DNA of 64,000 nt from Bacteroidetes Order II. bacterium (GTDB lineage Bacteria > Bacteroidota > Rhodothermia > Rhodothermales > UBA2364): contig JAEUSQ010000032.1 in assembly GCA_016788705.1 (NCBI GenBank), positions 62,001-126,000 of the forward strand. Reading direction: 5' to 3'. Shown piece after piece: positions 8,000 to 38,822 of this stretch. The position numbers and the translations under genes are program-made. The notes beneath the pieces are model-generated. The model searched no databases, was not told the DNA's origin, and was given only the letters and a program-made list of their open reading frames with translations. The first letter of the stretch is position 1, and each line of letters opens with the position of its first letter.

Positions 8000-8712
8000 G
8001 TGCTATTATTCAGGCACGTATGGGATCGAGTCGCCTGCCAGCCAAAGTCTTAAAAACATTACCTTATGATAGTCATATAACTGTTTTAGATCGCATTATT
8101 CAGGTTCTTGAATCTATTCCAGAAATCAATAAGGTCATCATTGCAATTCCCAATACACCCCAAGATGACTCTTTAGCCCAAATATTAGCCGATAAAAAAG
8201 TTTTATACTATAGAGGTAGCGAACAAGATGTTTTGAGCCGCTTCTATGAAGCAAGCCATAGGCATAAACTTCAAACCATTTTGCGCTTTACAGCAGACAA
8301 TCCTTGTATTGATGCTACATTTATCCATCAAACCTTAGTCACACACTTGGCGGCAGGTGCCGATTACACAAACTCGCAAGGTTTACCTTTAGGAACAAAC
8401 TTAGAAGTTTTCTCTTTTACGGCTTTAGAGAAAGCATTTAAAGCTGCCGATACGCCCTATGAACGAGAACATGTAACGCCATATATTAAAAATATACAAA
8501 ATGGATTCATGCTCCACACCATCGCTTATAAAGGATTTGACCCAGAACTGAGGCTGACATTAGACACCGCGCAAGATTATACATTTCAATGCTGTTTATT
8601 TTTAGCCTTGAAGGAAGCAAATCTTCCCCTTACATTGCCCGCAATTCAAGAGGTGATACATCGCCACCCTTGGATGACTGAGATCAATCGTCATATTAAA
8701 CAAGCAAGTTGA
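7993..8712 (+). CDS. pseF: SpsF/PseF-type cytidylyltransferase
   Basis: Nucleotidyltransferase of the SpsF/COG1861 type, predicted to activate pseudaminic acid to CMP-Pse. The N terminus reads GAIIQARMGSSRLPAKVLK, the nucleotide-binding loop of the family; RFTADNP (at about 96-102) and YEREHVTPYI follow. I chose the ATG at 7993 because relatives begin only a few residues before this loop; an ATG at 7984 would add three residues. The start overlaps the end of the SDR gene. A second, NeuA/LegF-like CMP-sugar synthetase lies at 38127-38822, so the two nonulosonates probably have separate activating enzymes. Confidence 0.88.
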   Translation: MVGAIIQARMGSSRLPAKVLKTLPYDSHITVLDRIIQVLESIPEINKVIIAIPNTPQDDSLAQILADKKVLYYRGSEQDVLSRFYEASHRHKLQTILRFTADNPCIDATFIHQTLVTHLAAGADYTNSQGLPLGTNLEVFSFTALEKAFKAADTPYEREHVTPYIKNIQNGFMLHTIAYKGFDPELRLTLDTAQDYTFQCCLFLALKEANLPLTLPAIQEVIHRHPWMTEINRHIKQAS

Positions 8713-8716
8713 AGTT

Positions 8717-10120: not shown

Positions 10121-11163
10121 TGGCTTCTATTCGGCTTTCTACCTGTCAAATTGGGCAAGCACATAAACCCTTTGTGATTGCTGAAATGTCGGGCAATCAC
10201 AATCACTCCTTAGAACGCGCTTTAAGTATTGTAGATGCTGCGGCTGATGCAGGTGCACATGCCCTAAAACTTCAAACTTATACCGCAGATACCATGACAA
10301 TTAAGGGAGCTTACACCATTCAAGATCAAAATTCTTTGTGGCATGGAGCAGAGTTATACGATTTATATAAAAAAGCTTATACGCCCTGGGAATGGCATAA
10401 ACCCTTATTTGATCGGGCAAGAGTGCGGGGGATGATTCCGTTTAGCTCTCCTTTTGATGAAACTTCTGTGGACTTTTTAGAGTCATTAGAGGTCGAACTT
10501 TATAAAATTGCGTCTTTTGAAAATACAGATCATCCACTGCTAAAAAAGGTGGCACAGACTGGTAAACCTGTTATTATGTCCACAGGTGTTAGCACCATTG
10601 CAGATATTTTTGAATCTGTTCAAGTGCTAAAAAACAATGGATGCAAAGAATTAATTTTGCTTAAATGTACCAGTACTTACCCTTCCTCTCCTGAGAATAC
10701 CAACTTAAATACAATTCCCGTTTTACAACAAGTTTTCCAAGATTGTGTTATAGGGCTTTCTGACCATACAATGGGCGTTGGAGTTGCAGTTGCTTCTGTC
10801 GCCCTTGGCGCACGGGTTATTGAAAAACATTTCACCTTACGGCGTGCAGATGGGGGCGTAGATAGTGCCTTTTCTTTAGAGCCAGAAGAATTGGCAACCT
10901 TGGTTATAGAAAGTGAGCGTGCCTTCTTAGGCTTAGGAACGCCTCAATTTAATGTTCAAGACAAAGAAAAAAATAGCCTGTTATTTAAGCGTTCTATTTA
11001 TGTATCCAAGGACATTGAAATTGGGGAACCGTTTACAAGTGAAAACATTCGTGTTATCCGCCCTGGGAATGGTCTTCCTCCTAAGTTTTACGATCTCCTT
11101 TTAGGCAAACAAGCCAAACAAGCATATAAGGCAGGCACTCCTCTTACCTTTGATGCTATCTAA
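10120..11163 (+). CDS. pseI: Pseudaminic acid synthase
   Basis: A NeuB-family enzyme (347 residues) that condenses the 6-deoxy diacetamido-altrose product with phosphoenolpyruvate. The TIM-barrel domain shows FVIAEMSGNHNHS (about 18-30), ALKLQTYTADTM, YKIASFE, STGVSTIADI, GLSDHTMG and EKHFTLRRADGGVDSAFSLE; a C-terminal SAF antifreeze-like domain (about 288-345, KRSIYVSKDIEIGEPF to PGNGLPP) closes the active site. AEMSGNHN and the RADGGVDSAFS segment are of the PseI/SpsE type, whereas the second synthase in the window (14959-15990) reads AEAGVNHNGD and DRSMPGPDHAAS like NeuB/LegI. It is last in the coupled Pse set. Confidence 0.95.
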   Translation: MASIRLSTCQIGQAHKPFVIAEMSGNHNHSLERALSIVDAAADAGAHALKLQTYTADTMTIKGAYTIQDQNSLWHGAELYDLYKKAYTPWEWHKPLFDRARVRGMIPFSSPFDETSVDFLESLEVELYKIASFENTDHPLLKKVAQTGKPVIMSTGVSTIADIFESVQVLKNNGCKELILLKCTSTYPSSPENTNLNTIPVLQQVFQDCVIGLSDHTMGVGVAVASVALGARVIEKHFTLRRADGGVDSAFSLEPEELATLVIESERAFLGLGTPQFNVQDKEKNSLLFKRSIYVSKDIEIGEPFTSENIRVIRPGNGLPPKFYDLLLGKQAKQAYKAGTPLTFDAI

Positions 11164-13762: not shown

Positions 13763-14962
13763 ATGCAATACGATGTCGTCGTTGTTGGAGGTGGAATTGT
13801 AGGTTTAGCGACCGGCTGGGCCCTTATTCAAACCAACCCCGCCTTAAAGTTGGTCATATTAGAGAAGGAAGCAACACTTGCTCAGCATCAAACAGGCCGA
13901 AACAGTGGTGTAATCCATAGCGGAATTTACTATAAGCCCGGTAGCTTTAAAGCAAAGTTTGCCCGTGCAGGCCGTGAAAGTATGGTCGCATTTGCCAGAG
14001 AATATGGCATTGCACATGATATTTGTGGCAAACTCATCGTGGCAAGCCATGATTCCGAGCGAGAAGGTTTGAATAAGCTTTATGAGCGTGGACTTGAGAA
14101 CCAGATTCGAGTGACGCGCGTGAGCAAAGCAGAGATGAAAGACATTGAGCCGCACTTGCGCGGCGAAGAAGGGGTTCAAGTGCTGGATGCAGGCATTATT
14201 GATTACAAACAAGTCGTCCAACAGCTCAAAACGTTGCTCTTGGCATCAGGGGTGGAAATCCGTTTGGGTATAGAGGCAAAGGAGGTCGTTTCTCATAAAG
14301 ATGGCATTGAGGTTCAGACCAACCAGGCGCTGGTGCGAGGACGATATTTTATCAATTGTGGTGGCTTATGGAGCGACCGCATCGCCAAGAAATCCAAAGC
14401 AACTGTAGAGGTCAAGATTGTTCCATTTCGGGGGGAGTATTTTGAGCTAAAGCCAGAAAAAAACCACTTGGTCAAAAACTTGATTTATCCGGTCCCCAAT
14501 CCCAATTTTCCGTTTTTGGGCGTACACCTCACCCGCATGGTTCATGGCGGTATTCATGCAGGGCCCAATGCGGTACTTGCTTTTAAGCGAGATGGGTATT
14601 CTAAATTAGACTTTAGTTTGCGGGATACTTTAGACACCCTAACCTTTCCCGGCTTTTGGATTTTAGCTGGAAAATATTTGGGAGATGGGGTGCAAGAAAT
14701 GCTTCGCTCATTCAGTAAAAAACGTTTTACAGCCTCCTTGCAAGCCCTCGTTCCCGAAATTCAAATGGAAGATTTAACCCCCTCCCCTGCCGGCATTCGA
14801 GCGCAAGCCATGCTTAGAAATGGACAGTTGGTGGATGACTTTATGATCCATGTAGAAGATCGCGCCATGCACGTTTGTAATGCACCTTCCCCTGCAGCCA
14901 CAGCCTCGCTAGAAATTGGTCGTTACCTAAGCCAAGAACTTATTAAAAGATTTGATTTATGA
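13763..14962 (+). CDS. lhgO: L-2-hydroxyglutarate oxidase/dehydrogenase family FAD protein
   Basis: An FAD-dependent oxidoreductase (399 residues) with a GGGIVG dinucleotide motif at 9-14, TGRNSGVIHSGIYY at about 48-61 (a hallmark of LhgO), VPFRGEYFEL and VPNPNFPFLGVHLTRMVHGGIHAGPNAVLAF in the substrate domain. LhgO oxidises L-2-hydroxyglutarate to 2-oxoglutarate and feeds electrons to quinone. It overlaps neuB by four bases (ATGA), so it is translated together with nonulosonate synthase genes, although no step of that pathway is known to need it. It could oxidise a sugar-derived hydroxy acid or simply be a hitch-hiker. Family firm, local role unknown. Confidence 0.9.
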   Translation: MQYDVVVVGGGIVGLATGWALIQTNPALKLVILEKEATLAQHQTGRNSGVIHSGIYYKPGSFKAKFARAGRESMVAFAREYGIAHDICGKLIVASHDSEREGLNKLYERGLENQIRVTRVSKAEMKDIEPHLRGEEGVQVLDAGIIDYKQVVQQLKTLLLASGVEIRLGIEAKEVVSHKDGIEVQTNQALVRGRYFINCGGLWSDRIAKKSKATVEVKIVPFRGEYFELKPEKNHLVKNLIYPVPNPNFPFLGVHLTRMVHGGIHAGPNAVLAFKRDGYSKLDFSLRDTLDTLTFPGFWILAGKYLGDGVQEMLRSFSKKRFTASLQALVPEIQMEDLTPSPAGIRAQAMLRNGQLVDDFMIHVEDRAMHVCNAPSPAATASLEIGRYLSQELIKRFDL

Positions 14963-15990
14963 ATAAAACTCAAGTGCTAATCATTGCAGAGGCTGGCGTA
15001 AACCACAATGGAGATTTAGCCCTTGCAAAGAAGTTGATAGAAGTTGCCGCTGCTGCGGGGGCAGACTATGTAAAGTTTCAAACTTTTTTAGCCAAAAACT
15101 TAGTCAGTGCTCATGCTAAAAAAGCGAAATATCAAATTGAAAACTTGGGTGCGGCTTCGGAAGATGACACCCAATATTCGATGCTTAAGCAATATGAATT
15201 AAGCCCTTCAGACCATGCAACATTGATTGCACATTGTAAGGCTTGTGGCATTCGCTTCCTTTCTACCGCCTTCGACCTAGAGAGCTTAGACTTATTGCGC
15301 CAGATTGACCTTGACTTATATAAAATTCCATCAGGTGAAATCACCAATTTGCCCTATCTAAAAGAACTTGGTCGTTTAGGTAAACCGATTGTTTTGTCAA
15401 CGGGTATGGCAACTTTGGAGGACATCGAAGCTGCGATTCAGGTTTTACAGGCAGCAGGAGCAGACCGAGAAACCATTACAGTCCTGCACTGCAATACCGA
15501 ATATCCAACGCCTATGGAGGATGTAAACTTGCGGGCGATGCAGACCATTCAAACACGCTTGGGCGTGGCAATTGGGTACTCCGATCATACTTTAGGGATC
15601 GAAGTACCCGTGGCAGCCGTTGCTTTGGGGGCCGTTTGTATCGAAAAGCATTTTACCTTAGATCGGTCTATGCCAGGCCCAGACCATGCCGCCTCTTTAG
15701 AACCAGAAGAGCTTAAAGCAATGGTTAAAGCCATTCGCAACATTGAAAAAGCGTTAGGACATGGGCTAAAAACGCCTTCTCCTTCTGAAATAAAAAATAT
15801 GGCGATTGCCCGAAAAAGCATCCATTTAGCCCATGACCTCGCTCAAGGAACCTTGCTAAGTGAAGCAGATTTGGTGATGAAGCGCCCCGGTGATGGTCTC
15901 TCGCCGATGGAACTGCCTAACGTTTTAGGCAAACGCCTCAAGTATGCTTTAGCGGCTGACCATAAACTTGATTTAAAGGATTTGGCATAA
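14959..15990 (+). CDS. neuB: N-acetylneuraminate/legionaminate synthase
   Basis: Condenses a 2-epimerised hexosamine (ManNAc or 2,4-diacetamido-2,4,6-trideoxymannose) with phosphoenolpyruvate. The 343-residue protein has AEAGVNHNGD (10-19), VKFQTF, YKIPSGEITN, STGMATLEDIE, GYSDHTLGIEVPVAA and EKHFTLDRSMPGPDHAASLE, then a C-terminal SAF domain with KSIHLAHDLAQGT and MKRPGDGLSP. It is followed without a gap by the hydrolysing 2-epimerase. The DRSMPGPDHAAS motif is of the NeuB/LegI type rather than PseI. The choice between Neu5Ac and legionaminic acid is open; a LegF-like synthetase, a CBS-nucleotidyltransferase and an amidotransferase nearby favour a legionaminic-type sugar. Confidence 0.93.
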   Translation: MNKTQVLIIAEAGVNHNGDLALAKKLIEVAAAAGADYVKFQTFLAKNLVSAHAKKAKYQIENLGAASEDDTQYSMLKQYELSPSDHATLIAHCKACGIRFLSTAFDLESLDLLRQIDLDLYKIPSGEITNLPYLKELGRLGKPIVLSTGMATLEDIEAAIQVLQAAGADRETITVLHCNTEYPTPMEDVNLRAMQTIQTRLGVAIGYSDHTLGIEVPVAAVALGAVCIEKHFTLDRSMPGPDHAASLEPEELKAMVKAIRNIEKALGHGLKTPSPSEIKNMAIARKSIHLAHDLAQGTLLSEADLVMKRPGDGLSPMELPNVLGKRLKYALAADHKLDLKDLA

Positions 15991-17154
15991 ATGGCTCGTA
16001 AAATTTGCGTTGTGACGGGTAGCCGTGCCGAATATGGTCTGCTCTTTGGGCTTTTGAAAGAAATCCAAGAAGACCCTGACCTCTGCTTGCAATTGGTCGT
16101 CACAGGCATGCACCTCTCGCCAGAATTTGGACTAACCTATAAAACTATTCTACAAGATGGCTTTGAAATCCATGAAAGGGTCGAAATCCTACTTTCGAGC
16201 GATAGCGCCCAAGGCGTTTCAAAAAGTGTTGGTTTGGGGCTAATTGGGTTTGCAGATGCCTTTGAGCGCCTTAAGCCTGATCTTCTGGTTTTACTCGGCG
16301 ACCGCTTTGAAGTGTTTGCTGCCGCCCAAGCAGCCATGCTTGCCCGCATCCCTATCGCCCATCTACACGGCGGCGAAACCACAGAAGGAAACTTCGATGA
16401 AGCCATACGCCATAGTATTACCAAAATGGCCCACTTGCACTTTACTTCAGCCGAAGTCTATCGAAACCGCGTTATTCAATTGGGAGAAGCGCCAAACCGC
16501 GTTTGGAATGTAGGAGCCTTGGCAGTGGACAACCTCAAGCAAGTTCCGCTTTGGTCACGCAATCAATTGATCGAAAACCTGAATATTACCTGGGGCAACC
16601 CCATGCTTTTAGTGACTTACCATCCTGTAACCAACTCAGAAGAGTCCCCAGAAAGCCAGCTTAAAGCCTTATTTGAAGCTATAGATGCCTTCCCTAACGC
16701 AAAAGCGGTGATTACAAAAGCAAATGCGGATACGGCTGGGCGGGTTATTAACCAATTGATCGAAACCTATGTTGCCACACAACCGCATCGTATTTTTGCT
16801 TTTACTTCATTGGGACAGGTTCGATATTTGAGTATGTTACAAGAATGTGATTTAGTCTTAGGGAACTCTTCAAGCGGCATCATTGAAGCGCCTCTATTTG
16901 GTAAGCCTACTATTAACATTGGTCTAAGACAAGCTGGTCGCCTTAGAACTTCATCTATTTTGGACTGCGAAGCCTCCAAAGAAGCCATTATAGATGCCAT
17001 TAAAACAGGGCTTAGCTCCCGCTTTAAAGCACAAGCAAAGGAAACTGCTTCGCCTTATGGACAAGTAGGAGTCGCAAAAAGAATCAAGGCCGTTGTCAAA
17101 AGTATGCCTTTAGAGGGCATTTTATTTAAAACTTTTTACGATCTTTCTCAATAG
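15991..17154 (+). CDS. neuC: Hydrolysing UDP-N-acetylhexosamine 2-epimerase
   Basis: A GT-B-fold enzyme of 387 residues that hydrolyses UDP and inverts C2, giving free ManNAc or its 4-acetamido-6-deoxy analogue for the synthase upstream. Family features are VTGSRAEYGLL (8-18), VTGMHLSPEFG, LGDRFEVFAAA, HLHGGETTEGNFDEAIRH, VTYHPVT, KANADTAGR and GNSSSGIIEAP. These mark the NeuC/LegG group, distinct from the non-hydrolysing WecB-type epimerase at 27145-28230. It begins on the base after the neuB stop. An 84-base gap with a short AAACGA/TCGTTT hairpin (17196-17212) separates it from the amidotransferase. Confidence 0.94.
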   Translation: MARKICVVTGSRAEYGLLFGLLKEIQEDPDLCLQLVVTGMHLSPEFGLTYKTILQDGFEIHERVEILLSSDSAQGVSKSVGLGLIGFADAFERLKPDLLVLLGDRFEVFAAAQAAMLARIPIAHLHGGETTEGNFDEAIRHSITKMAHLHFTSAEVYRNRVIQLGEAPNRVWNVGALAVDNLKQVPLWSRNQLIENLNITWGNPMLLVTYHPVTNSEESPESQLKALFEAIDAFPNAKAVITKANADTAGRVINQLIETYVATQPHRIFAFTSLGQVRYLSMLQECDLVLGNSSSGIIEAPLFGKPTINIGLRQAGRLRTSSILDCEASKEAIIDAIKTGLSSRFKAQAKETASPYGQVGVAKRIKAVVKSMPLEGILFKTFYDLSQ

Positions 17155-24995: not shown

Positions 24996-27080
24996 ATGAT
25001 CACCAAACTCCGTCGGGTACTTGACCTTGTAAAGCATCTTGGGCTTAAGTGGATTCTCTTTCGGGTGTATTATGCACTTTACACTAAACTCGGTATTTTA
25101 GCCCGCAAGACAAAGAGGACGGCGTGGGATTGGGAAGCTTTATCGCAATTAACCCAAACCCCGAACCAAGCTTCTGTTGCTTATTGGGCCAAGTTTCAAG
25201 AACGTAAGCCTAAATTTTTATTTGATCCAAAAGACCGTGCAAAATATGCCCCTTTTCTGCATGCCTTAGATCAAGAAGCTGAGAATCCCCAAGCTTTACG
25301 AGAAGAAGTACAGGCTTTTTTAGAAGGGAAGCTTCGTTTCTTTGACGGTGCTTATCAACCCATCGGTTTTCCCCCCCGATGGAACTTCAATTGCATTGAT
25401 GAAATTGAAATTCCAAACGATGTGCATTGGAGCCGCTTAAGCGATTTTGCGTTTGGCGATATAAAACTTGTTTGGGAAATGAGCCGTTTTAAGATGGTCT
25501 ATAAACTGGTGCGTCTGTACTGGCGAACAGGTGACGCATCTTATGCAGAAGTCTTTTGGCAGCTTATTGAAGATTGGGTTTTGCACAACCCTCCTAATCT
25601 GGGCCCAAATTGGAAGTGCGGACAAGAAACCAGCCTCCGCGCCTTTGCTTGGACGTTTGGACTATATGGTTTTGCCGACTGCCCAGCTTCCACACCAGAG
25701 CGCATCCGCCGTTTGGTCTTTATGATCGGTGTATCTGCCGAAAGGGTAGAAGCCAACTTAGCTTATGCCATTAGCCAACGCAATAACCATGGCATTAATG
25801 AAGCATTTGGGCTTTGGTTTATCGGATTATTGTTCCCAGAGTTTAAAAGCGCGCCCCGTTGGTTTCAAAAAGGGCAAAAATGGTTAGAATATGAGGCGCA
25901 GGAACTCATCGCGCCTGATGGCTCTTTTGTCATGCACGGACACAATTACCATCGGATTATTTTAACGACTTATTTAATAACGGTTCAATTAGCGACACTA
26001 AATAAGCTTGCATTTTCACAGACATATGAGACCCGCTTAAAAACCAGTTTTAATTTTCTTGCTCGGTTTGTCATCGGTGAAAAAGGAGAAGTACCAAACT
26101 ATGGATATAATGATGGTTCTCTAAATATGCCCTTAAGCACCCAAAATTTTCATGATTTTCGCCCGATTTTACAAGCAGGGCTTATTTGGGCAAACCAGCA
26201 TAAAGCATTTAAATTAAGCAGTGGTAATGAAGATAGCATTTGGCTTTTAGGTCTAAACGCTCTAAATAGCCCCTATCAACCTATTGATAGCCAGCCTTTA
26301 TTTGCTTCTCCGAGCGATTATTTCATTTTACAAGACGAGGCAAGTACAGTTTTCACTCGAAACGCCATTTATACAAAAGACCGCCCAGCCCACGCTGATG
26401 CCTTGCATATTGATTTATGGTGGAAAGGAATCAACTTAGCCATAGACCCCGGCACTTTTAGCTATAATGGAAAGGGCAAGGAGCATTTAGCATTTGAAGA
26501 AAGCCGTTTCCATAATGTCGTTACCGTAAATGGTGCAAATCAAATGATACGCTTCAGCCGTTTTTTATGGCTGCCTTGGGTTAAAGGGCAAAACAAAGTA
26601 GAAACCAAAACCAAACGCCCTATCTTCTATGGCAAACATGACGGCTATGAAGTACGGTTTAATACCTATTATGAGCGCCAAATTATAAGCTTAGGGCAAG
26701 ATAAATGGGTAATATTAGACTGGTTAGAAGCTCAAAAACCAGAGCAGTACACGTTACATTGGTTATGGGGAAATTTCCCAGTAAAACAAGAGGGTGACCA
26801 ACTTATATATGAAACATCCAAAGGCAATTTCTATGGGAAGGTGCTATCGAATCATCCCTCGCTAAGGATTGACTTAACAAAAGGAACACCTTTATCCGCA
26901 GAAGGGCAGTTTGCCCCAAACTATTATGCGCTAAAGGCAACAACAGCTTTGAAAGCAAGTGTTCAAGCTCAATCTTGTTTATTTGTAACCGTCTTTGCCC
27001 CACAACCTTGCTCCGTTACATTAAAAGATCATGTATTAACGGTAAACGATCAAATCATGACAATTTCTAAACAATTATAG
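24996..27080 (+). CDS. Heparinase II/III-family protein
   Basis: A 694-residue protein with an N-terminal alpha-toroid (about 100-360; RWNFNCIDEIEIPNDVHWSRL, then GQETSLRAFAWTFGLY and QRNNHGINEAFGLW) and a C-terminal beta-sandwich (about 440 onward; HADALHIDLWWKGINLAIDPGTFSYNG and SRFHNVVTVNGANQM), the layout of heparinase II/III-type polysaccharide lyases. The NNH motif and the RFHN/TVNG segment are family signatures. No clear signal peptide is present, so secretion is uncertain. Such genes are common in uronate-containing O-antigen and capsule clusters next to an AsnB-like gene; whether it trims polymer or has a transfer role is unknown. Confidence 0.85.
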   Translation: MITKLRRVLDLVKHLGLKWILFRVYYALYTKLGILARKTKRTAWDWEALSQLTQTPNQASVAYWAKFQERKPKFLFDPKDRAKYAPFLHALDQEAENPQALREEVQAFLEGKLRFFDGAYQPIGFPPRWNFNCIDEIEIPNDVHWSRLSDFAFGDIKLVWEMSRFKMVYKLVRLYWRTGDASYAEVFWQLIEDWVLHNPPNLGPNWKCGQETSLRAFAWTFGLYGFADCPASTPERIRRLVFMIGVSAERVEANLAYAISQRNNHGINEAFGLWFIGLLFPEFKSAPRWFQKGQKWLEYEAQELIAPDGSFVMHGHNYHRIILTTYLITVQLATLNKLAFSQTYETRLKTSFNFLARFVIGEKGEVPNYGYNDGSLNMPLSTQNFHDFRPILQAGLIWANQHKAFKLSSGNEDSIWLLGLNALNSPYQPIDSQPLFASPSDYFILQDEASTVFTRNAIYTKDRPAHADALHIDLWWKGINLAIDPGTFSYNGKGKEHLAFEESRFHNVVTVNGANQMIRFSRFLWLPWVKGQNKVETKTKRPIFYGKHDGYEVRFNTYYERQIISLGQDKWVILDWLEAQKPEQYTLHWLWGNFPVKQEGDQLIYETSKGNFYGKVLSNHPSLRIDLTKGTPLSAEGQFAPNYYALKATTALKASVQAQSCLFVTVFAPQPCSVTLKDHVLTVNDQIMTISKQL

Positions 27081-27144: not shown

Positions 27145-28230
27145 ATGAAAATCGTACATGTCGTAGGGGCACGCCCCAATTTTATGAAAATAGCCCCTGT
27201 TTGGAAAGCAATTTCTACTTTAACAGATTGGATCCAAACCCTTGTGCATACAGGACAACATTATGATGATAATATGTCCACTATTTTTTTTAATGAACTT
27301 GGTTTGCCTAAACCACATGTCAATTTAGAAGTAGGGGGTGGAACCCATGCTTATCAAACCGGACAGGTCATGATCTTATTCGAGGCTTTGATGCTCAAAG
27401 ATCGCCCTGATTGGGTTTTGGTTTATGGAGATGTTAATTCCACAGCCGCCGCCTCTATGGTTTGTGCCAAACTCGGCATCAAAGTCGCCCATGTAGAAGC
27501 AGGGCTTCGCTCTTTTGATCGAGAAATGCCTGAAGAAATTAACCGATTGGTAACAGATCAATTGGCTGATTTACTCCTTACACCTTCATTAGATGGCAAT
27601 TATAACCTGATAAGAGAAGGCATACATCCTGATAAAATTCATTTTGTTGGTAATGTAATGATAGACACGCTTATCCAGTTAAAACCACTTTCAGACCAGC
27701 AATGGGTTACACTAAGCAAAGACTTAAACATAGAAAAAAAATGCTTTATACTTGTAACGTTACACCGACCTTCAAATGTAGATGATGCAGCACAACTAAC
27801 GCTTCTCTTAGCATCACTAGAGGAATTAAGCTCAAATATTAAGATCATTTTTCCTTTACATCCACGTACTCGCAATCGTTTAGTATCCCAAGGATATGAC
27901 TTTAAAAGAAGTTCGCTTCATTTTATTGAACCTTTAGGTTATCTTGCTTTTCTTGCTTTGCAGGCTCACGCTAAAGTTGTTGTTACAGATTCTGGCGGTG
28001 TTCAAGAAGAAACAACCTATCTTGGCGTTCCTTGTCTTACGATGCGAGAAAATACAGAACGACCAGTAACCGTCACGGTTGGGACTAATAAACTTATTGG
28101 ACGTGATGTACATCTAATGCTTCAAGAGTGCCAGCTTGTTCTTAATGGCACGTATAAAAAAGGTCAAATCCCGCTTTATTGGGATGGTAAAGTGGGCGCA
28201 CGCATTGTCCAAGCGTTACAACTCTCTTAA
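27145..28230 (+). CDS. wecB: Non-hydrolysing UDP-N-acetylglucosamine 2-epimerase
   Basis: Interconverts UDP-GlcNAc and UDP-ManNAc (or the WbpI-type diacetamido-uronate). The protein (361 residues, GT-B fold) begins MKIVHVVGARPNFMKIAPV and shows HTGQHYDDNMS at about 37-47, VYGDVNSTAAAS, HVEAGLRSFDREMPEEINR, VTLHRPSNVD and TDSGGVQEETTYLGVP, all strong WecB signatures. Combined with the WecC/WbpA-type dehydrogenase at 34523-35866 it could give UDP-ManNAcA, or act like WbpI on a GlcNAc-uronate. A 64-base gap precedes it. Distinct from the neuC-type enzyme at 15991-17154. Confidence 0.95.
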   Translation: MKIVHVVGARPNFMKIAPVWKAISTLTDWIQTLVHTGQHYDDNMSTIFFNELGLPKPHVNLEVGGGTHAYQTGQVMILFEALMLKDRPDWVLVYGDVNSTAAASMVCAKLGIKVAHVEAGLRSFDREMPEEINRLVTDQLADLLLTPSLDGNYNLIREGIHPDKIHFVGNVMIDTLIQLKPLSDQQWVTLSKDLNIEKKCFILVTLHRPSNVDDAAQLTLLLASLEELSSNIKIIFPLHPRTRNRLVSQGYDFKRSSLHFIEPLGYLAFLALQAHAKVVVTDSGGVQEETTYLGVPCLTMRENTERPVTVTVGTNKLIGRDVHLMLQECQLVLNGTYKKGQIPLYWDGKVGARIVQALQLS

Positions 28231-29546: not shown

Positions 29547-30143
29547 ATGAAACGAGCGTTTGATATTATAGTGTCTCTGGTTGCACTCATTGTTCTTGCT
29601 CCATTCATTTTACTTTTGGCAGCCTGTGTCACTTATAAAATTGGGGCGCCTGTTTTATTTGCCCAAGACCGCCCCGGCTATAAGGGAAAAATATTTAGAA
29701 TGTACAAGTTCCGAACGATGACAAATGAGCGAGATGCTTCAGGTGCTTTATTACCAGATGCCCAGCGGATGACCCCTATAGGACGTTTTTTACGTAGTAC
29801 TAGTTTAGACGAACTTCCAGAACTATGGAATGTACTAAAGGGTGAAATGAGTTTGGTAGGGCCTCGTCCATTACTCGCACAGTATCTTGCTTATTACTCA
29901 TCAGAACAAGCAAGAAGGCATAATGTAAAACCCGGTATTACAGGGTGGGCACAAGTAAATGGACGTAATGCTATTACCTGGGAAGAAAAGTTTAAGTTAG
30001 ATACATGGTATGTAGATCATCAGTCTTTAGCGCTTGATATTAAAATACTTTGGATGACAATTGTCAAAGTTTTTAATAGGGACGGTATTAGTGCAGTAGG
30101 ACATGAGACAATGCCATTATTTACAGGATCACACTATGACTAA
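29547..30143 (+). CDS. PglC-like initiating phosphoglycosyl transferase
   Basis: A small monotopic phosphoglycosyl transferase (198 residues) that moves a sugar-1-phosphate to undecaprenyl phosphate, starting each repeat unit. The N-terminal hydrophobic segment (about 4-28) is the re-entrant helix; KFRTMT lies at 54-59, the catalytic Asp-Glu pair is Asp88-Glu89 ([27 protein letters not shown]) and [13 protein letters not shown] follows. Its length is that of the minimal PglC type, lacking the WbaP-like N-terminal extension. The following acyltransferase overlaps it. The sugar it uses is probably an N-acetylated 6-deoxyhexosamine, judging from its neighbours. Confidence 0.93.
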
Positions 30144-30733: not shown

Positions 30734-31381
30734 ATGACAAAACTTGTAATTATTGGTGCAGGAGGACATGGTAAAGAGGTTGCAGACATCTTACTTGCAC
30801 AACATAAAGAGAGCACAACTACCGTAGTTGCAGGTTTTATAGACGAAGATCCCGCCAAATACGGAGCCTATATAAACGGATTACAAGTACTTGGTAATAC
30901 TAACTGGCTCTTCACACAGCCCATTCATGCTTATAAGGTGGTTGTGGCGATAGGGAATTTACAGGTACTAAAAAAAGTTGTCACTGAAATTAAGCAGCAC
31001 GGCATTGCCCTTACAACTGCCATTTCTCCAGACGCACTTGTTTCACCTTCTGCCCAAGTTGGTGATGGGAGTATTTTATTTCCTCACACTTCTATTGGTG
31101 CAAACGTTCAAATTGGAGAATGTGTAACCTTAAATGTTGGGACAAGCGTAAGCCATGATAGTATAATTGGTAAGTACACAGGGTTAAATCCTGGGGTAAG
31201 ATGTGCAGGGAGTGTTCAAATTGGAGAGGGGGCCTATATCGGCATTGGTACCAGTATCATCCAAGGACGTAAAATAGGATCATGGAGTACGATAGGCGCA
31301 GGCGCAGTTGTCATTAGAGATATTCCTGATCATGTAACAGCGGTAGGTATTCCCGCGAAGGTGATTAAAAGCAATAAATAA
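30734..31381 (+). CDS. NeuD/PglD-family sugar acetyltransferase
   Basis: A trimeric LbH acetyltransferase (215 residues) with the family's small N-terminal Rossmann-like domain (VIIGAGGHGKEVADIL, 5-20; FIDEDP at 35-40) and a hexapeptide helix from about 100 to 205. The likely catalytic base is His141 (SVSHDSIIG), followed by NPGVRCAGSVQIGEGAYIGIG. PglD/LegH members acetylate the C4 amine of UDP-4-amino-sugars; NeuD members act on sialic acid. It precedes a PLP aminotransferase by 34 bases, as PglD and PglE often go together, which favours the 4-amino-sugar role. Confidence 0.9.
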   Translation: MTKLVIIGAGGHGKEVADILLAQHKESTTTVVAGFIDEDPAKYGAYINGLQVLGNTNWLFTQPIHAYKVVVAIGNLQVLKKVVTEIKQHGIALTTAISPDALVSPSAQVGDGSILFPHTSIGANVQIGECVTLNVGTSVSHDSIIGKYTGLNPGVRCAGSVQIGEGAYIGIGTSIIQGRKIGSWSTIGAGAVVIRDIPDHVTAVGIPAKVIKSNK

Positions 31382-31415: not shown

Positions 31416-32600
31416 ATGGATAAAATTAGGACAACTCCTTTAGCACCATGGCCGCATTTTGATCAGGATGAAATTAATGCGGTTATGCGTGTTTTGCAAT
31501 CAGGAAAAGTTAATTATTGGACAGGGCAAGAGTGTAAACAATTTGAAAAAGAGTTTGCAGCTTATGTTGGTACTCAGTATGCCATTGCTGTTGCAAATGG
31601 CACAAATACTATTGAACTCGCTCTTCATGCTCTCCGCATTCCGCGTGGAGCAGAGATGATTTTGACAAGTAGAACATTCATGGCTTCTGCCAGCGCGGCA
31701 GCAATCAGGGGCATTAAACCTGTTTTTGCAGATATTGATCCGATTACACAAAACGTAACAGCCGAAACGATCCGCAAAGTTATTACGCCTAATACAAAGG
31801 TTATCATGGCGGTTCACTTAGGAGGTTGGCCTTGTCCAATGGATGAAATTATGGGATTGGCTAAGGAGTTCAACCTTAAAGTCATTGAAGATTGCGCCCA
31901 AGCACATGGCGCTTCCTATAAAGGTATAAAAGTAGGAGCATGGGGGCATATTAACTCTTTTTCGTTCTGCCAGGATAAGATCATGACAACTGGTGGAGAA
32001 GGAGGAATGATTACCACTGATGATAAAGAACTATGGGAAAGAGCTTGGGCATATAAAGATCATGGCAAAAACTATGATACAGTTTATCACAAGCAGCACC
32101 CTCCAGGCTTCCGTTGGCTCCATGAGTCGTTCGGTACGAATATGCGTATGACAGAAATGCAAGGTGCTATTGGGCGCATTCAACTCCGTAAATTAGATGA
32201 GTGGGTAGCGAAGCGTCGGGCAAATGCCGACATTTTAAATCGGACTTTTGAGAATATTAAAGGCTTGAAGGTTACAATTCCCCCCTCAGATGTTTTTCAT
32301 TCTTATTACAAATATTATGTATTTTTAGATTTATCGCTTCTGAAAAATGACTGGAACCGCGAGCGCATCATGCAAGAGGTAGGCGCTTTGGGTATTCCCT
32401 GTTTCAGTGGTAGCTGTAGCGAAATCTATTTAGAAAAAGCTTTTGAACGCTGTGCACTACAGCCGCTTGAACGCCTTCCTGTTGCAAAAAACTTAGGCGA
32501 AACCTCTCTAATGTTCATGGTACATCCGACAATGTCTAAAGAAGAAGTTGAACAAACAGCCTTAGCCTTAAAAATAGTTATGGCTCAAGCTGTCGCCTAA
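31416..32600 (+). CDS. DegT/DnrJ/EryC1-family nucleotide-sugar aminotransferase
   Basis: A PLP aminotransferase (394 residues) with Lys188 as the Schiff-base residue (SFCQDKIMTTGGEGG), EDCAQAHGASYKG at about 159-171, and NYWTGQECKQFEKEF and ANGTNTIELAL at the N-terminal side. It converts a keto group on an NDP-sugar to an amine. Its neighbours (PglC-like transferase, NeuD/PglD-like acetyltransferase, membrane SDR) resemble a Pgl-type bacillosamine module, so C4 amination is the first guess; a WbpE-like C3 amination of a uronic acid cannot be excluded. No dedicated 4,6-dehydratase for it is seen, apart from PseB far upstream. Confidence 0.88.
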   Translation: MDKIRTTPLAPWPHFDQDEINAVMRVLQSGKVNYWTGQECKQFEKEFAAYVGTQYAIAVANGTNTIELALHALRIPRGAEMILTSRTFMASASAAAIRGIKPVFADIDPITQNVTAETIRKVITPNTKVIMAVHLGGWPCPMDEIMGLAKEFNLKVIEDCAQAHGASYKGIKVGAWGHINSFSFCQDKIMTTGGEGGMITTDDKELWERAWAYKDHGKNYDTVYHKQHPPGFRWLHESFGTNMRMTEMQGAIGRIQLRKLDEWVAKRRANADILNRTFENIKGLKVTIPPSDVFHSYYKYYVFLDLSLLKNDWNRERIMQEVGALGIPCFSGSCSEIYLEKAFERCALQPLERLPVAKNLGETSLMFMVHPTMSKEEVEQTALALKIVMAQAVA

Positions 32601-32640: not shown

Positions 32641-34164
32641 ATGCAAACGTTCTTATCTAACAACCTGACATTTCAACGCATCATTCGCATGGCTGCGGAT
32701 GTTTTGATGTTGTCTTTTAGCATCATCGCTGCATTTGTACTCCGTTTAGCCTTCTCTAAAGATGAAACGGTAGTGTACAATGTTCAAGACTGGATTAAAA
32801 CTGCTGCGGCACTTGTTGCTATTGCATTACCAGTTTTCATGCTTAGCGGTTTCTATACTTCTGGCCGTTTTTATCAAGGCAAGTATAAAGCAATCACTGT
32901 TTTACAAGCAGTTGCTTTAACATACTTGATATTCACTGCGTTAACCTTTTTTTCGGGTAAGCTACTATGGTACTCTCGCTCAGTTTTGTTGGTATCATGG
33001 ATTTTTAGCTCCATCTTGTTAGTTGGAGCGCGACTCTGGTCTGTGGTGTGGAAATATGTCTTACGGTCAGAAGTATCTATCTCTAAAAAGCGCAATCCTG
33101 GACAAATTAAATCTATTCGTAACGTTTTAGTTATTGGTGGGGCAGGGTATGTTGGATCAGGCTTAATTCCTCGTTTACTCGAAAAAGGTTATAATGTCAA
33201 ACTTCTAGACATAATGATGTTTGGTTATGAGCCAATTAAGAGTGTTCGCAACCATTCTAACTTACAGATTATTCGTGCAGACTTTCGGCAAATAGATAAA
33301 GTTGTTGAAGCGGTTCATGGCGTGGATGCGGTTATTCATTTAGGCGGCATTGTTGGCGACCCAGCTTGCTCTCTAGATGAGCAGCTAACCATTGATGTAA
33401 ATCTTGCTGCTACTCGTATGGTTGCAGAAATTGCAAAAGGGTATGGTGTGCAGCGTTTCATTTTCGCCTCCTCTTGCAGTGTATATGGCGCCAGTGATGA
33501 AGTCTTAAATGAGCTCTCTAGCTTAAGTCCAGTTTCACTTTATGCAAAAACTAAAATTGCTTCCGAAAAAGTTTTGCAGCAACTTTCAGGGCCAGATTTC
33601 TGTCCTGTCATTTTGCGTTTTGGAACAATTTATGGTTTTTCTGGGCGTACCCGCTTTGATCTTGTTACCAACCTATTAACAGCGAAGGCCGTGAAAGAAG
33701 GTAAGATCACGGTTTATGGTGGAGATCAATGGCGGCCTTTTATCCATGTAAATGATGTGGCAAAAGCAGTCTTTTTAGCCTTAGAGGCGGACCTTTCACT
33801 AGTCCAGAATGAAATATTTAATGTTGGATCAGATGCTCAGAATATGACCCTTTGGCAAGTTGGCGAGCTAATCAAAAAGCAAGTCCCAAGCGCTGAACTT
33901 TTAGACTTAGGAATGGACGGAGATCGCCGTAATTATCGGGTTAGCTTCAAAAAAATTGCAGAAGTTTTGAACTTTAAGCCAGATTGGACAATGGAAGCTG
34001 GGATTACCCAGGTGCTAGAAGCATTGCACGTAGGGGCTGTAAAAGATTACAAAAACCCTATGTATAGCAATGTTCAGTTTTTAAAAGAACATGAAAACTC
34101 GGAATTGTTTAAGCAATTGGAAAAAGATCATGACTTAAAGCTCCTAGAAGTTTTCAGTAACTAA
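32641..34164 (+). CDS. Membrane-anchored SDR: four-TM domain fused to an NAD-dependent epimerase/dehydratase
   Basis: A 507-residue protein with four hydrophobic helices (about 16-37, 51-70, 85-104, 113-131), like the N-terminal membrane part of WbpM/PglF/CapD, then a single extended SDR domain: GGAGYVG at 166-172, an IVGDPAC motif, SSCSVYG and YAKTK (Tyr301, Lys305). Normal WbpM-type proteins carry an extra Rossmann domain and a dehydratase with STDKA; both are missing. The SDR half instead resembles the soluble protein at 37137-38111 (shared GDPAC, RFDL, QxWRP and HVND segments). It sits where a pgl-like cluster would have PglF. Reaction unknown: epimerase, reductase or dehydratase. Confidence 0.8.
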   Translation: MQTFLSNNLTFQRIIRMAADVLMLSFSIIAAFVLRLAFSKDETVVYNVQDWIKTAAALVAIALPVFMLSGFYTSGRFYQGKYKAITVLQAVALTYLIFTALTFFSGKLLWYSRSVLLVSWIFSSILLVGARLWSVVWKYVLRSEVSISKKRNPGQIKSIRNVLVIGGAGYVGSGLIPRLLEKGYNVKLLDIMMFGYEPIKSVRNHSNLQIIRADFRQIDKVVEAVHGVDAVIHLGGIVGDPACSLDEQLTIDVNLAATRMVAEIAKGYGVQRFIFASSCSVYGASDEVLNELSSLSPVSLYAKTKIASEKVLQQLSGPDFCPVILRFGTIYGFSGRTRFDLVTNLLTAKAVKEGKITVYGGDQWRPFIHVNDVAKAVFLALEADLSLVQNEIFNVGSDAQNMTLWQVGELIKKQVPSAELLDLGMDGDRRNYRVSFKKIAEVLNFKPDWTMEAGITQVLEALHVGAVKDYKNPMYSNVQFLKEHENSELFKQLEKDHDLKLLEVFSN

Positions 34165-34522: not shown

Positions 34523-35866
34523 ATGAAACATTATACACATTTACAAGAGAAAATTGTAAACAAAACAGTTCAAGTTGGCATTGTTGGACTAGGCTATGTT
34601 GGGCTACCACTCGCAGTAGAATTTGCCAAAGCTGGCGTAAAAACGTTGGGCTTGGATGTAAGCGAAGAAAAAGTTGCTTTAATCAATAAAGGGCAAAACT
34701 ACATTGGTGATGTAAAAGATGAAGAATTAGCTGTTGCTGTTTCTTCGGGACAGCTTCAAGCCACAACAGATTGGTCAACAGGTAGCGACATAGATGTCTT
34801 TGTCATCTGTGTACCAACCCCAATGTCTTTACATAAAGATCCCGATGTTACCTATATTGAAAAAGCTTCTGAAGCGATTGCTGCAATTTTACGCCCAGGT
34901 CAATTGGTTATTCTAAAATCAACAACGTATCCTGGTACAACGGAGTATGTTGTTCAGCCTATTTTGGAGAAGGTTGGGCTTAAACTTGGAGAAGAATATT
35001 TCTTAGCCTATAGCCCAGAGCGGGTAGATCCTGGGAATGAAATATGGCATACAGGCAATACGCCTATTGTAGTCGGAGGTGTAACAGAAGCTTGTTTGAA
35101 GTTAGCCTCGGCAACCCTTAAGCTTTTTGTAGGGCATGTACATGAGGTTAGTTCGCCGAAAGTAGGTGAAATGGAAAAGCTGCTTGAAAACACCTTCCGC
35201 TCCGTTAATATTGCTTTAGTGAATGAGCTTGCCCAACTTTGTGATCGCATGGGCGGTATTAATATTTGGGAGGTGATCAATGCAGCTGCCACTAAACCAT
35301 TTGGGTACATGAAGTTTACTCCAGGCCCAGGTGTAGGGGGGCATTGCATTCCTATTGACCCTTACTACCTCTCTTGGCTTGCCAAACGGTATGATTTTGA
35401 AACCAGTTTTATCACGCTAGCAGCAAAAACCAATGAGTCTATGCCGTTTTATGTGGTGGATGCTACGATTCGTGCTATCGCAGAACAACCCGTTGCATTA
35501 AAAGATGCCAATGTTTTGGTTATGGGCGCCACCTTCAAAAAAGATGTTGCAGATTCGCGGCATTCACTGGCAGAACCTATTTTACGGCTTCTACGAGAAA
35601 AGAACGTCCAAAACATTACCTTAGCAGACCCGATTGTAGATAGTTTTTCCTTCGATTGGTGGGATGGAAAGCACGAAACAATTCCGACCCAACCCTTGAC
35701 ACAGGCACTTGTTGAAAAATCTAATGTGGTTATTTTAATCACCGATCATTCAGCATTTGACTATGAAATGGTCGCAATACATGCCAAGCATATAGTAGAT
35801 TCGCGCAACGCATTTGCAAAAATTAAAAACCGAACCAATATTACGTTGATTGGCGGTGGTCAATAA
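34523..35866 (+). CDS. Nucleotide-sugar 6-dehydrogenase (WbpA/WecC type)
   Basis: Oxidises C6 of a UDP-N-acetylhexosamine to the uronic acid in two NAD steps. The 447-residue protein has the NAD motif GLGYVGLP (22-29), VPTPM at 98-102, STTYPGTTE, YSPERVDPGN, and the catalytic Cys275 in PGPGVGGHCIPIDPYYL, then a C-terminal domain with GATFKKDVADSRHS. The SPERVDPGN and GGHCIPIDP motifs fit UDP-GlcNAc/ManNAc dehydrogenases rather than Ugd, which has [10 protein letters not shown] (see 41061-42395). With wecB it would supply UDP-ManNAcA, or UDP-GlcNAcA alone. The MITE ends 44 bases before its start, so expression may be altered by the insertion. Confidence 0.92.
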   Translation: MKHYTHLQEKIVNKTVQVGIVGLGYVGLPLAVEFAKAGVKTLGLDVSEEKVALINKGQNYIGDVKDEELAVAVSSGQLQATTDWSTGSDIDVFVICVPTPMSLHKDPDVTYIEKASEAIAAILRPGQLVILKSTTYPGTTEYVVQPILEKVGLKLGEEYFLAYSPERVDPGNEIWHTGNTPIVVGGVTEACLKLASATLKLFVGHVHEVSSPKVGEMEKLLENTFRSVNIALVNELAQLCDRMGGINIWEVINAAATKPFGYMKFTPGPGVGGHCIPIDPYYLSWLAKRYDFETSFITLAAKTNESMPFYVVDATIRAIAEQPVALKDANVLVMGATFKKDVADSRHSLAEPILRLLREKNVQNITLADPIVDSFSFDWWDGKHETIPTQPLTQALVEKSNVVILITDHSAFDYEMVAIHAKHIVDSRNAFAKIKNRTNITLIGGGQ

Positions 35867-36077: not shown

Positions 36078-37121
36078 ATGTTCTCTCACCACCTCATACG
36101 TGACAATCTATCCATCCTAGATGCATTAGCCTGCCTCAATACCCTCCATGATGCATTGACCCTCTTTGTCCTCTCCGAAAAGGGTGAATTAGTTGGAACA
36201 CTTACTGATGGGGATGTTCGGCGTGGCTTGCTGGCAGGTCTTACAGTGAACGCCCCCGTAACCTCTATCATGAGAACGTCTTTTCGTTATTTAAAAATGG
36301 GTGATTTTACGTTAGCCCAAGTAGATGAAATTCGAAAAGCAGAAGTAAGTTTGATCCCCTTATTAAATCAAGAAGGGTGTATAGAAGATGTTATAGACCT
36401 CTCCAAAAAACGTTCTGTTTTGCCATGTGATGTCGTGATGATGGCTGGCGGCTTAGGAATACGTTTGCGGCCCTTGACCTTAGACAAACCTAAGCCTATG
36501 CTACCCGTAGGGAATAAACCTATTATTGAGCACAATATTGATCGCTTAATCAGTTTTGGGATTTATAATTTTACGATTTCTATTAAATATTTGGGAGAGC
36601 AAATAGCAGGCTACTTCAAAGATGGGCGGCATTTAGGGGTTCAAATACAATACCTTATCGAAAATGAGCCATTAGGCACCATTGGGTCAGTGAGCCAAAT
36701 CTCTGCCTTTAAGAACGACTATGTTTTGGTGATGAACTCTGATATTCTCACGACGATTGACTTTGAGGAAATGTTCAGAACCTTTATCGAAAAAGAGGCG
36801 GATATGATGGTTGCAACGGTTCCTTATGAAGTCAAGGTTCCTTATGGGGTTTTAGAGACCAATGAAGACGATGCTGTTTTATCTTTAAAAGAAAAACCGA
36901 TCTATACCTATTATGCCAATGCTGGCATTTATTTGATGAAGCGAAAAGTACTTGAGTTCATTCCTCAAAACACTTTTTTTAATACCACGGACTTGATGGA
37001 TGTGGTCATCGCTAAAGGAATGAAGCTTTCCTCGTACCCAATTTTGGGTTACTGGTTAGACATTGGGCAGATGGAAGATTACCATCGTGCGCAGCATGAT
37101 ATTAAACATTTACAACTTTAA
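36078..37121 (+). CDS. CBS-domain sugar nucleotidyltransferase (PtmE-like)
   Basis: A 347-residue protein with a CBS pair at about 1-110 (LVGTLTDGDVRRGLLAG is typical) and a sugar-1-phosphate nucleotidyltransferase domain from about 118 (MMAGGLGIRLRPLTLDKPKPMLPVGNKP, then MNSDILTTID and ANAGIYLMKR). This architecture is that of PtmE, the glucosamine-1-phosphate guanylyltransferase of the GDP-linked legionaminic-acid route in Campylobacter. Mannose-1-phosphate guanylyltransferases share the second domain. Its position, two genes before a CMP-Leg/Neu-type synthetase, supports the PtmE-like role. Fifteen bases separate it from the SDR gene. Confidence 0.85.
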   Translation: MFSHHLIRDNLSILDALACLNTLHDALTLFVLSEKGELVGTLTDGDVRRGLLAGLTVNAPVTSIMRTSFRYLKMGDFTLAQVDEIRKAEVSLIPLLNQEGCIEDVIDLSKKRSVLPCDVVMMAGGLGIRLRPLTLDKPKPMLPVGNKPIIEHNIDRLISFGIYNFTISIKYLGEQIAGYFKDGRHLGVQIQYLIENEPLGTIGSVSQISAFKNDYVLVMNSDILTTIDFEEMFRTFIEKEADMMVATVPYEVKVPYGVLETNEDDAVLSLKEKPIYTYYANAGIYLMKRKVLEFIPQNTFFNTTDLMDVVIAKGMKLSSYPILGYWLDIGQMEDYHRAQHDIKHLQL

Positions 37122-37136
37122 TATAAACAAAGTTTT

Positions 37137-38111
37137 ATGAATCGTATTTTGGTTACTGGTTGTGCAGGGTATATTGGCTCTGTACTGACTCGCTTGCTTT
37201 TAAATGATGGATACCAAGTTGTGGGCTTAGATAGCTTGAAGTTTGGCGGAGCGGCTTTGGTTGATATTTATAACCATCCTAGCTTTACGTTTGTTCGAGG
37301 CGATATTCGAGATATAGAAGGGTTCCGATCAATCCTAAAAACCTATCAAATCGATGGTGTCGTAAACTTAGCGGCTATTGTGGGCGATCCTGCATGCCGC
37401 AAATTTGAGCAAGAGGCGACAGAGGTCAATTTAGAAACCCCAAAAACCCTTTTTGATATTTGTAATGACGCAGCTGTACAACGGTTTGTATTTGCTTCTA
37501 CTTGTTCCAATTATGGTAAGATGGAAGGAGATGGCTTTGTTAAAGAAGATTCGCCGCTCAATCCTGTTTCACACTATGCCAAAACTAAAGTTGCTTTCGA
37601 GCAGTTTTTATTGGATAAAACAAATGGGGTGACAGCGCCCATCATTTTGCGTTTTTCAACCGTTTATGGGCTTTCGCCGCGCATTCGGTTTGACTTGACG
37701 GTAAACGAATTTACACGTGATCTTTCTTTAGGGAAGGAGTTAGATATTTTTGGACCTCAGTTTTGGCGGCCCTATTGCCATGTAAACGACTTGGCGCGCT
37801 CGGTCATGGTTGCTTTAAAAGCAGATGAAGCGCTTGTTCGGGGCGAAGTTTACAATGTCGGGGACTCTACCGAGAATTACCAAAAGCAAATGATTATTGA
37901 CGAAATAGCGAAGGTAGTTCCTAATACCAAGATTAAGTACACGCCTCAAATAGATGATCCGCGCGATTACCGTGTCAATTTCGACAAAATCCAAACCAAG
38001 CTTGGGTTTTCGATTACCAAAAAAGTCATTGATGGCGTTGAGGAAATTCATCGTTTCATTCAAGACGGTATTATCGCCGACCCTTATGATGCTGCCTACC
38101 GAAACGTATAA
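37137..38111 (+). CDS. NAD-dependent epimerase/dehydratase (extended SDR, GDPAC type)
   Basis: A soluble extended SDR of 324 residues: GCAGYIG at 8-14, AAIVGDPACRKFEQ near 79-92, STCSNYGKM, catalytic Tyr147 and Lys151 (YAKTK), and RIRFDL, QFWRPYCHVND in the substrate domain. These same unusual motifs recur in the SDR half of the membrane protein at 32641-34164, so the two probably share chemistry. It lies between the PtmE-like enzyme and the CMP-sugar synthetase, 15 bases from each. It might act on a GDP-sugar of a legionaminic-type path, but it lacks the STDKA or STDEV dehydratase signature. Confidence 0.85.
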   Translation: MNRILVTGCAGYIGSVLTRLLLNDGYQVVGLDSLKFGGAALVDIYNHPSFTFVRGDIRDIEGFRSILKTYQIDGVVNLAAIVGDPACRKFEQEATEVNLETPKTLFDICNDAAVQRFVFASTCSNYGKMEGDGFVKEDSPLNPVSHYAKTKVAFEQFLLDKTNGVTAPIILRFSTVYGLSPRIRFDLTVNEFTRDLSLGKELDIFGPQFWRPYCHVNDLARSVMVALKADEALVRGEVYNVGDSTENYQKQMIIDEIAKVVPNTKIKYTPQIDDPRDYRVNFDKIQTKLGFSITKKVIDGVEEIHRFIQDGIIADPYDAAYRNV

Positions 38112-38126
38112 GAGAGCAAGGCATTT

Positions 38127-38822
38127 ATGCGATATTTAGGCTTTATCACCGCACGCGCAGGCTCCAAAGGCATTCCGCATAAAAACATGCGCCTGCTTAA
38201 CGGTAAGCCTCTGATTCAATACACCTATGAAGCAGCTTTAGCCGCTCAGTCTTTGGCAGAAACCCACTTAAGCTCTGATTATCACGAAGCGATGGTATTG
38301 GGCGAGGAAATGGGTATTGGGGTCTTGTATAAACGTCCAGAGGCATTAGCATCCGACCATGCCACCAGTATTGAAGTTATGCTTTACCACTTCGATTTTA
38401 TGGAGGCGCAAGGTATGGCTCTGCCTGATGCGGTTGTGCTTTTACAACCGACCAGCCCCATCCGAAGCGAAGGTTTAATAGATCGCTGTATTAAAGCCTT
38501 TGAGCAAAGTGGTAAGGAAAGCTTAGTGGCGGTAAGTGCTTGCATTCAGCATCCATATAGTACGTTTACGATACAGGATGGGAAAAACAAGTTTATCAAC
38601 CCAACCCCCACCCGGCGGCAGGACTATCCGCCTTACTACTTCATTACAGGCTCTGTTTATATTGCAACGCCCGCTTTTTTGCGGCAGCATCGGGTGTTTT
38701 TTAACGAAGATACTGCCCTTTACGAAACGTCTGAGTACGAAGCCATTGATATTGACACGCCTTTTGATTTGGCGCTGGCTTCCTTTATTCTTGCATCTGA
38801 AAGTAATTTCACTCATAAATAA
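38127..38822 (+). CDS. CMP-nonulosonate synthetase (NeuA/LegF/PtmB type)
   Basis: Transfers CMP from CTP to the product of the second synthase. The 231-residue protein has the family P-loop RAGSKGIPHKN (10-20), KPLIQYTYEAAL, SSDYHEAM, YKRPEALASDHATSIEV, LLQPTSPIRSEG and EAIDIDTPFDL. It is of the sialate/legionaminate group, unlike the SpsF-like PseF at 7993-8712. It completes, with neuB and neuC, a minimal route to CMP-Neu5Ac or CMP-Leg. It is the last gene before a gap with an IS1 remnant, so it probably closes the first polysaccharide cluster. Confidence 0.92.
   Translation: MRYLGFITARAGSKGIPHKNMRLLNGKPLIQYTYEAALAAQSLAETHLSSDYHEAMVLGEEMGIGVLYKRPEALASDHATSIEVMLYHFDFMEAQGMALPDAVVLLQPTSPIRSEGLIDRCIKAFEQSGKESLVAVSACIQHPYSTFTIQDGKNKFINPTPTRRQDYPPYYFITGSVYIATPAFLRQHRVFFNEDTALYETSEYEAIDIDTPFDLALASFILASESNFTHK

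Follow-up and report, generated by a model that had tools for sequence, protein, structure and literature searches.

Which enzyme works at the position of PglF in an operon that otherwise resembles a pgl cluster? The question is raised by a 64,000-nucleotide stretch of contig JAEUSQ010000032.1 from a Bacteroidetes Order II. bacterium, hereafter the window. Here, genes for a PglC-like phosphoglycosyl transferase (PGT; 29547), a PglD-like acetyltransferase (30734) and an aminotransferase (31416) are followed, 40 bp on, by a gene that joins membrane helices to an SDR domain (Table 1). An earlier note had placed this fusion at the position of PglF in a pgl-like gene order, and we confirmed that order.

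Table 1. Positions of the features of the window discussed in the text
Feature	Position	Strand	Evidence or remark
TM4-SDR fusion, main subject, 507 aa	32641..34164	+	intact open ORF; 8 further loci with identical layout
Four-helix membrane bundle, residues 9-147	32665..33081	+	homologous to N-terminal bundle of large PGTs (TIGR03025)
SDR domain, Cj1427-like, residues 160-481	33118..34083	+	PDB 6vo6 E 1.1e-43; Foldseek TMt 0.91-0.95; VIA Z 40.0
GDPAC motif, residues 239-243	33355..33369	+	sequence, alignment
SSCSVYG, residues 277-283	33469..33489	+	S278-C279-S280 = positions of Ser/Thr, acid, base in dehydratases
YAKTK, residues 301-305	33541..33555	+	Tyr301 and Lys305 = Yx3K pair
DegT-family C4 sugar aminotransferase, close relative of Pcryo_0638	31416..32600	+	7l7x E 6.7e-152; Gln183 conserved
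PglD/NeuD-type N-acetyltransferase	30734..31381	+	TIGR03570 above cut-off; PDB: PerB, Neisseria and Campylobacter C4-N-acetyltransferases
PglC-type small phosphoglycosyl transferase	29547..30143	+	53% identical to C. concisus PglC
WecB-type UDP-GlcNAc 2-epimerase, same cluster	27145..28230	+	TIGR00236 above cut-off
Nucleotide-sugar 6-dehydrogenase, downstream of fusion	34523..35866	+	TIGR03026 above cut-off
SDR2, second GDPAC SDR, without membrane part	37137..38111	+	38% identical to fusion SDR
L-2-hydroxyglutarate oxidase LhgO	13763..14962	+	NF008726 543 bits, cut-off 299

A four-helix membrane bundle is joined to a single SDR domain

Hydropathy, an AlphaFold2 model and Pfam searches all agreed with the earlier description of four TM helices joined to a single SDR. 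In the AlphaFold2 model, which was built from 31 sequences and has a mean pLDDT of 88.5 with most SDR blocks above 90, and in the hydropathy profile, long hydrophobic helices occupy residues 9-38, 43-68, 80-104 and 113-147; in the model a short linker then leads to the SDR domain, which begins at residue 160. The GDPAC, SSCSVYG and YAKTK motifs reported previously were all present. In the C-terminal part, Pfam returned Epimerase-type matches only (PF01370, 1.5e-44), with 37 bits for PF02719 versus 153 bits for PF01370.

As had also been observed before, the extra domain and the STDKA signature of PglF/WbpM are missing: Pfam found no complete CoA_binding_3 or DUF linker domain between the bundle and the SDR, and the fusion protein has no STDKA motif. 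A PF13727 match was confined to the first third (residues 69-137), below the cut-off and partly over the membrane region, and no PF02397 match to a PGT catalytic domain was obtained. The fusion thus shares with the UDP-GlcNAc 4,6-dehydratases PglF, WbpM and CapD its operon place, an N-terminal four-helix bundle and a membrane-tethered SDR, but it has neither the CoA_binding_3/DUF linker nor the TDK...Mx3K active site, and its SDR belongs to another branch, Epimerase rather than Polysacc_synt_2, with an SCS...Yx3K active site. The idea of a membrane-tethered sugar-modifying SDR distinct from PglF/WbpM is therefore supported at the level of sequence, and the protein would be expected to sit on the membrane in vivo.

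The fusion recurs in unrelated phyla

An assembly or gene-calling artefact could have fused an SDR to a membrane segment of unrelated origin, and one close relative of the fusion, L037, lacks the membrane part; nothing else was found in support of an artefact. When GTDB contigs were scanned, whole-length homologues with identical layout emerged at eight other loci: L034 from bacterium CPR1 (50% identity to the fusion in the best segment), L035 and L036 from Planctomycetota (49 and 47%), L038 from the isolate Bradyrhizobium sp. LMTR 3 (48%), L039 and L040 from Acidobacteriota, L043 from Colwellbacteria, and L046 from Anaerolineales (Chloroflexota), the last cut by the contig end. Their SDR parts are 45-63% identical, and their membrane parts, at 17-36% identity, have the motifs R.LAD and G[FL]Y[ST] in common. 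The in-frame layout with an alignable membrane part at eight other loci, one of them in an isolate, leaves the artefact reading next to no chance and rules it out, which also disposes of the assembly join that the earlier note had named as grounds for rejection. The TM4-SDR fusion is present in several unrelated phyla. The bundle-linker-SDR protein had no match in viral contigs, and among plasmids 1563 records matched the SDR but none covered 80% of the query, so the same layout was not found there.

The SDR domain is closest to the C4-dehydrogenase Cj1427

The nearest solved protein in a PDB sequence search was Cj1427 (6vo6, 1.1e-43), the second match reaching 4.5e-27. Cj1427 likewise took Foldseek ranks 1-6 (TMt 0.91-0.95) and headed the VIA-align list (Z 40.0 and 39.3; following family 37.8), superposing with an rmsd of 1.5 A over 301 residues at 33% identity. 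This protein is a proven NAD-dependent C4-dehydrogenase of GDP-heptose, in which tightly bound NADH is reoxidised with 2-oxoglutarate to yield L-2-hydroxyglutarate (PMC10680097). It shares with the fusion the SDR fold, Yx3K, the lack of a dehydratase acid/base pair and a conserved late D-x-R-x-Y motif, but it has no membrane part, reads TNS where the fusion reads SCS, acts on GDP-heptose and lies on another branch of the tree. In the SDR-domain tree, the window protein groups with L034, L035, L036, L037 and L038 (100/99), joined less firmly by L039, L040 and L072 (90/98). Cj1427 clusters with the SDR2 set (96/46; whole set 100/98), apart from the TM clade, and the two are not orthologues in the sense of sharing a branch.

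In known dehydratases, the acid/base pairs beside the catalytic Ser/Thr are DE, DK, SE and CE, while that of sulfoquinovose synthase is unknown (review, PMC8987622). The corresponding residues of the fusion SDR are Cys279 and Ser280. In an alignment of the relatives, Cys-Ser was by far the commonest combination and occurred in nearly all GDPAC relatives, Ser-Ser was characteristic of one branch and Asn-Ser of the branch with Cj1427, and none of the SDRs of the family had a dehydratase acid/base pair. These observations bear on the main rival reading, in which the SDR is a 4,6-dehydratase whose active site is new. It would then be a non-orthologous replacement for PglF that dehydrates UDP-GlcNAc, with Cys279 or other residues catalytic where Asp/Glu or Asp/Lys are usual, and ordinary UDP-diNAcBac would be made. 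TunA does have Cys at the acid position, but Ser at the base position means that the acid/base pairs of the dehydratase classes are missing (PMC8987622), and the nearest structure is a dehydrogenase.

The earlier note had suggested an epimerase, and the SDR might indeed be a C4-epimerase or a 4-keto reductase acting on a nucleotide- or lipid-linked sugar, with PseB or another enzyme providing the 4-keto sugar. The [ST]...Yx3K pattern without acid and base is also that of GalE (PMC8987622), the GalE model TIGR01179 was the best NCBIfam match, though its 117 bits fall below the cut-off of 262, and GalE-type epimerases rank behind Cj1427 in the fold list. However, Cj1427, a C4-dehydrogenase, ranks above all epimerases in both sequence and fold comparison. 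The C4-aminotransferase encoded next to the SDR depends on a keto sugar, which an epimerase would not release and for which a reductase would compete. Since, in addition, the linkage to a C4-aminotransferase recurs across phyla, we regard an epimerase or reductase as quite improbable.

The surrounding genes resemble a diNAcBac pathway

The aminotransferase encoded next to the fusion is about 57% identical to Pcryo_0638 (counted from the alignment) and keeps the C2-acetamido-binding Gln183; Pcryo_0638 itself acts on UDP-4-keto-6-deoxy-GlcNAc (PMC8040287). The mobile loop of the PglC-like PGT is near-identical to that of PglC. The diNAcBac enzymes have 6-deoxy sugars as their known substrates. 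The likeness of the partners to these enzymes, which extends to the aminotransferase, the acetyltransferase and the PGT (53% identical to PglC), hence favours a dehydratase, as does the operon position. So does the genome, in which we found no PglF; its sole strong PF02719 (true Polysacc_synt_2) protein is PseB, located within the pseudaminate genes of the window, which is in principle a possible source of a 4-keto-6-deoxy sugar. Absence of PglF is not a rule, because 7 of the 12 genomes with TM, CBS or linker relatives hold a strong PF02719 gene. Because the partner enzymes so closely resemble those for diNAcBac, we keep the dehydratase as the main rival, but weighed against the active site and the operons of the relatives described below, it appears unlikely.

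Several other gene groups lie in the window. The pseudaminate genes span 4183-11163, with PseB above cut-off and further Pse homologues, including an ORF of 467 aa (8717-10120) that by eye looks like PseG and PseH joined. A tight row at 36078-38822 comprises a CBS-nucleotidyltransferase, SDR2 and a PseF-like cytidylyltransferase, and together with NeuB/NeuC at 14959-17154 it perhaps forms a variant nonulosonate route. The operon also contains a heparinase-II-like gene of 694 aa, named by eye (24996-27080), and a Pirellulaceae genome has a homologue of it immediately after the TM-SDR gene (L036:9570-11891), with GT4 and PGT genes next in line. A homologue of the nucleotide-sugar 6-dehydrogenase downstream of the fusion was also found near the SDR in L029, L031 and L045.

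Relatives of the SDR accompany aminotransferases and LhgO

A DegT aminotransferase is encoded on the same strand within 1.3 kb of the TM-SDR gene at eight of nine loci, the window included. Those compared with the PDB were nearest to C4 types, namely Pcryo_0638 for the window, ArnB for L038 and perosamine synthase for L043. SDR2-type relatives occupy the place expected of LegB, beside a LegC-family aminotransferase (above cut-off in L068 and L072), NeuB and NeuC. The legionaminate-type operons L068:2113-8271 and L072:3-5760, consisting of LegC, NeuB, NeuC and an acetyltransferase, have a GDPAC SDR at that place. In a third branch, the SDRs have the SCS motif with NDPLG in place of GDPAC and their genes lie between those for glucose-1-phosphate cytidylyltransferase and RmlC; in L127 and L135 both of these enzymes score above cut-off, and L129 has the same gene order.

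In this third branch, the SDR gene and an LhgO gene share 4 bp in L127, L129 and L135 and are direct neighbours in L137 and L138. The resulting rows of cytidylyltransferase, LhgO, SCS SDR and RmlC (L127:2116-5227, L129:1-2865, L135:7193-10767, and 7138-10312 in both L137 and L138) apparently represent a route to a 4-keto CDP-sugar without the usual 4,6-dehydratase. We pursued the LhgO linkage after first sighting it in the window and in L069/L088; an SCS SDR was found beside LhgO at 5 of the 15 top-scoring LhgO loci and at none of five second copies. An LhgO gene beside the SDR fits Cj1427-type chemistry, since the L-2-hydroxyglutarate produced calls for an oxidase, whereas it would be superfluous for a redox-neutral dehydratase. 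In the window, LhgO is the first gene of an uninterrupted co-directional series whose last gene is the fusion (13763 to 34164, gaps of at most 84 bp). However, some 18 kb separate it from the fusion gene, the LhgO-coupled SDRs are only 33-37% identical to the fusion SDR, and LhgO is common in the class. With 162 of 244 genomes of the class carrying LhgO, only its adjacency is diagnostic, not its presence alone; both same-genus genomes lack it.

Literature searches returned nothing direct on this hydroxyglutarate link or on a fusion of the TM4-SDR layout. An experimentally shown parallel is WbpB with D-2-hydroxyglutarate dehydrogenase in P. aeruginosa, where the NADH of a sugar-nucleotide dehydrogenase is also reoxidised with 2-oxoglutarate and an enzyme oxidising 2-hydroxyglutarate does the recycling (PMC8651671). 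WbpB differs from the fusion SDR in its fold, in acting at C3 rather than C4 and in yielding D- rather than L-2-hydroxyglutarate.

The membrane bundle is shared with large PGTs

Each of the ten N-termini tested, that of the window protein among them, matched the start of the large-PGT model TIGR03025, with scores that are weak yet consistent (E 3.8e-7 to 0.0075). Such a bundle is common to large PGTs and PglF (eLife 91125, PMC10942596). The membrane domain had earlier been called WbpM-like, which holds in that the bundle is shared with PglF; judged from sequence matches, however, the anchor is the N-terminal bundle of the large PGTs, against which it scores best. Compared with large PGTs such as WbaP and WcaJ (TIGR03025), the fusion has the same kind of N-terminal four-helix bundle but no DUF and no PGT catalytic domain.

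Related SDRs carry varied N-terminal parts. The bundle and a PglF-type linker precede the SDR in L031 (= L002, 662 aa) and L044, a Rossmann-like stretch alone in L029 and L045 (by eye and alignment), and nothing in L037 and many other relatives. An SDR of the same family has the bundle and two CBS domains in L042:4230-6032, where PglF-like proteins carry the DUF linker, and another has a CBS domain alone (L041:6554-7966). Within the linker-bearing branch (L031:2608-4596, L044:7206-8993, L029:6071-7489 and L045:7575-8990), the catalytic Lys of Yx3K is replaced by Arg (YARTR). The occurrence of common N-terminal modules in large PGTs and PglF-like dehydratases was called puzzling in a study of WbaP (eLife 91125). 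With the fusion, the bundle is found in a third enzyme class, here without the DUF, and relatives of the fusion carry a DUF or CBS domains instead; the bundle therefore resembles a transferable module that anchors enzymes acting near the first membrane-committed step.

A proposed membrane-tethered C4-dehydrogenase

Taken together, we think it moderately likely that the fusion is a membrane-tethered UDP-GlcNAc C4-dehydrogenase of the Cj1427 kind that feeds the aminotransferase. We favour this reading because Cj1427 is nearest by sequence and fold and the SDR lacks the acid and base residues found in known 4,6-dehydratases, because the C4-aminotransferase linkage holds at nearly all TM-SDR loci in a genome without PglF of its own, and because relatives occupy 4,6-dehydratase places in two other pathways and are coupled to LhgO. 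Against it stand the likeness of the partner enzymes to those of diNAcBac, the modest identity to Cj1427 with its different motif and branch, and the distance of LhgO.

We infer the substrate, reaction and redox loop as follows. The four-helix bundle would hold the SDR at the inner membrane face, next to the PglC-like transferase. The aminotransferase would place an amino group on C4 of the keto sugar released by the SDR, the PglD-like enzyme would then acetylate it, and the PglC-like enzyme would transfer the sugar phosphate to undecaprenyl phosphate. NADH produced by the SDR would be reoxidised with 2-oxoglutarate to give L-2-hydroxyglutarate, which LhgO would return to 2-oxoglutarate. The product would probably be an amino sugar that keeps its 6-hydroxyl and is made by different chemistry. 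In C. jejuni, the same epimerases process 6-deoxy and 6-hydroxy 4-keto heptoses (PMC10680097), so tolerance of both sugar types is possible in downstream enzymes, and these heptoses would serve by analogy as a precedent for a dehydrogenase that replaces a dehydratase while the downstream enzymes are shared.

More broadly, we tentatively propose, at a little less than an even chance, that GDPAC/SCS SDRs generally serve as dehydrogenases in place of 4,6-dehydratases (PglF, LegB and CDP-glucose dehydratase), working with a 2-oxoglutarate/L-2-hydroxyglutarate/LhgO cycle and leading to forms of well-known amino sugars that retain the 6-hydroxyl, with the window protein as the membrane-tethered form that makes an undescribed 6-hydroxy counterpart of diNAcBac. 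If the dehydrogenase reading is true, an operon with the appearance of a bacillosamine or legionaminate operon may produce a different, 6-hydroxylated sugar, and glycans predicted from gene content would have to be revised.
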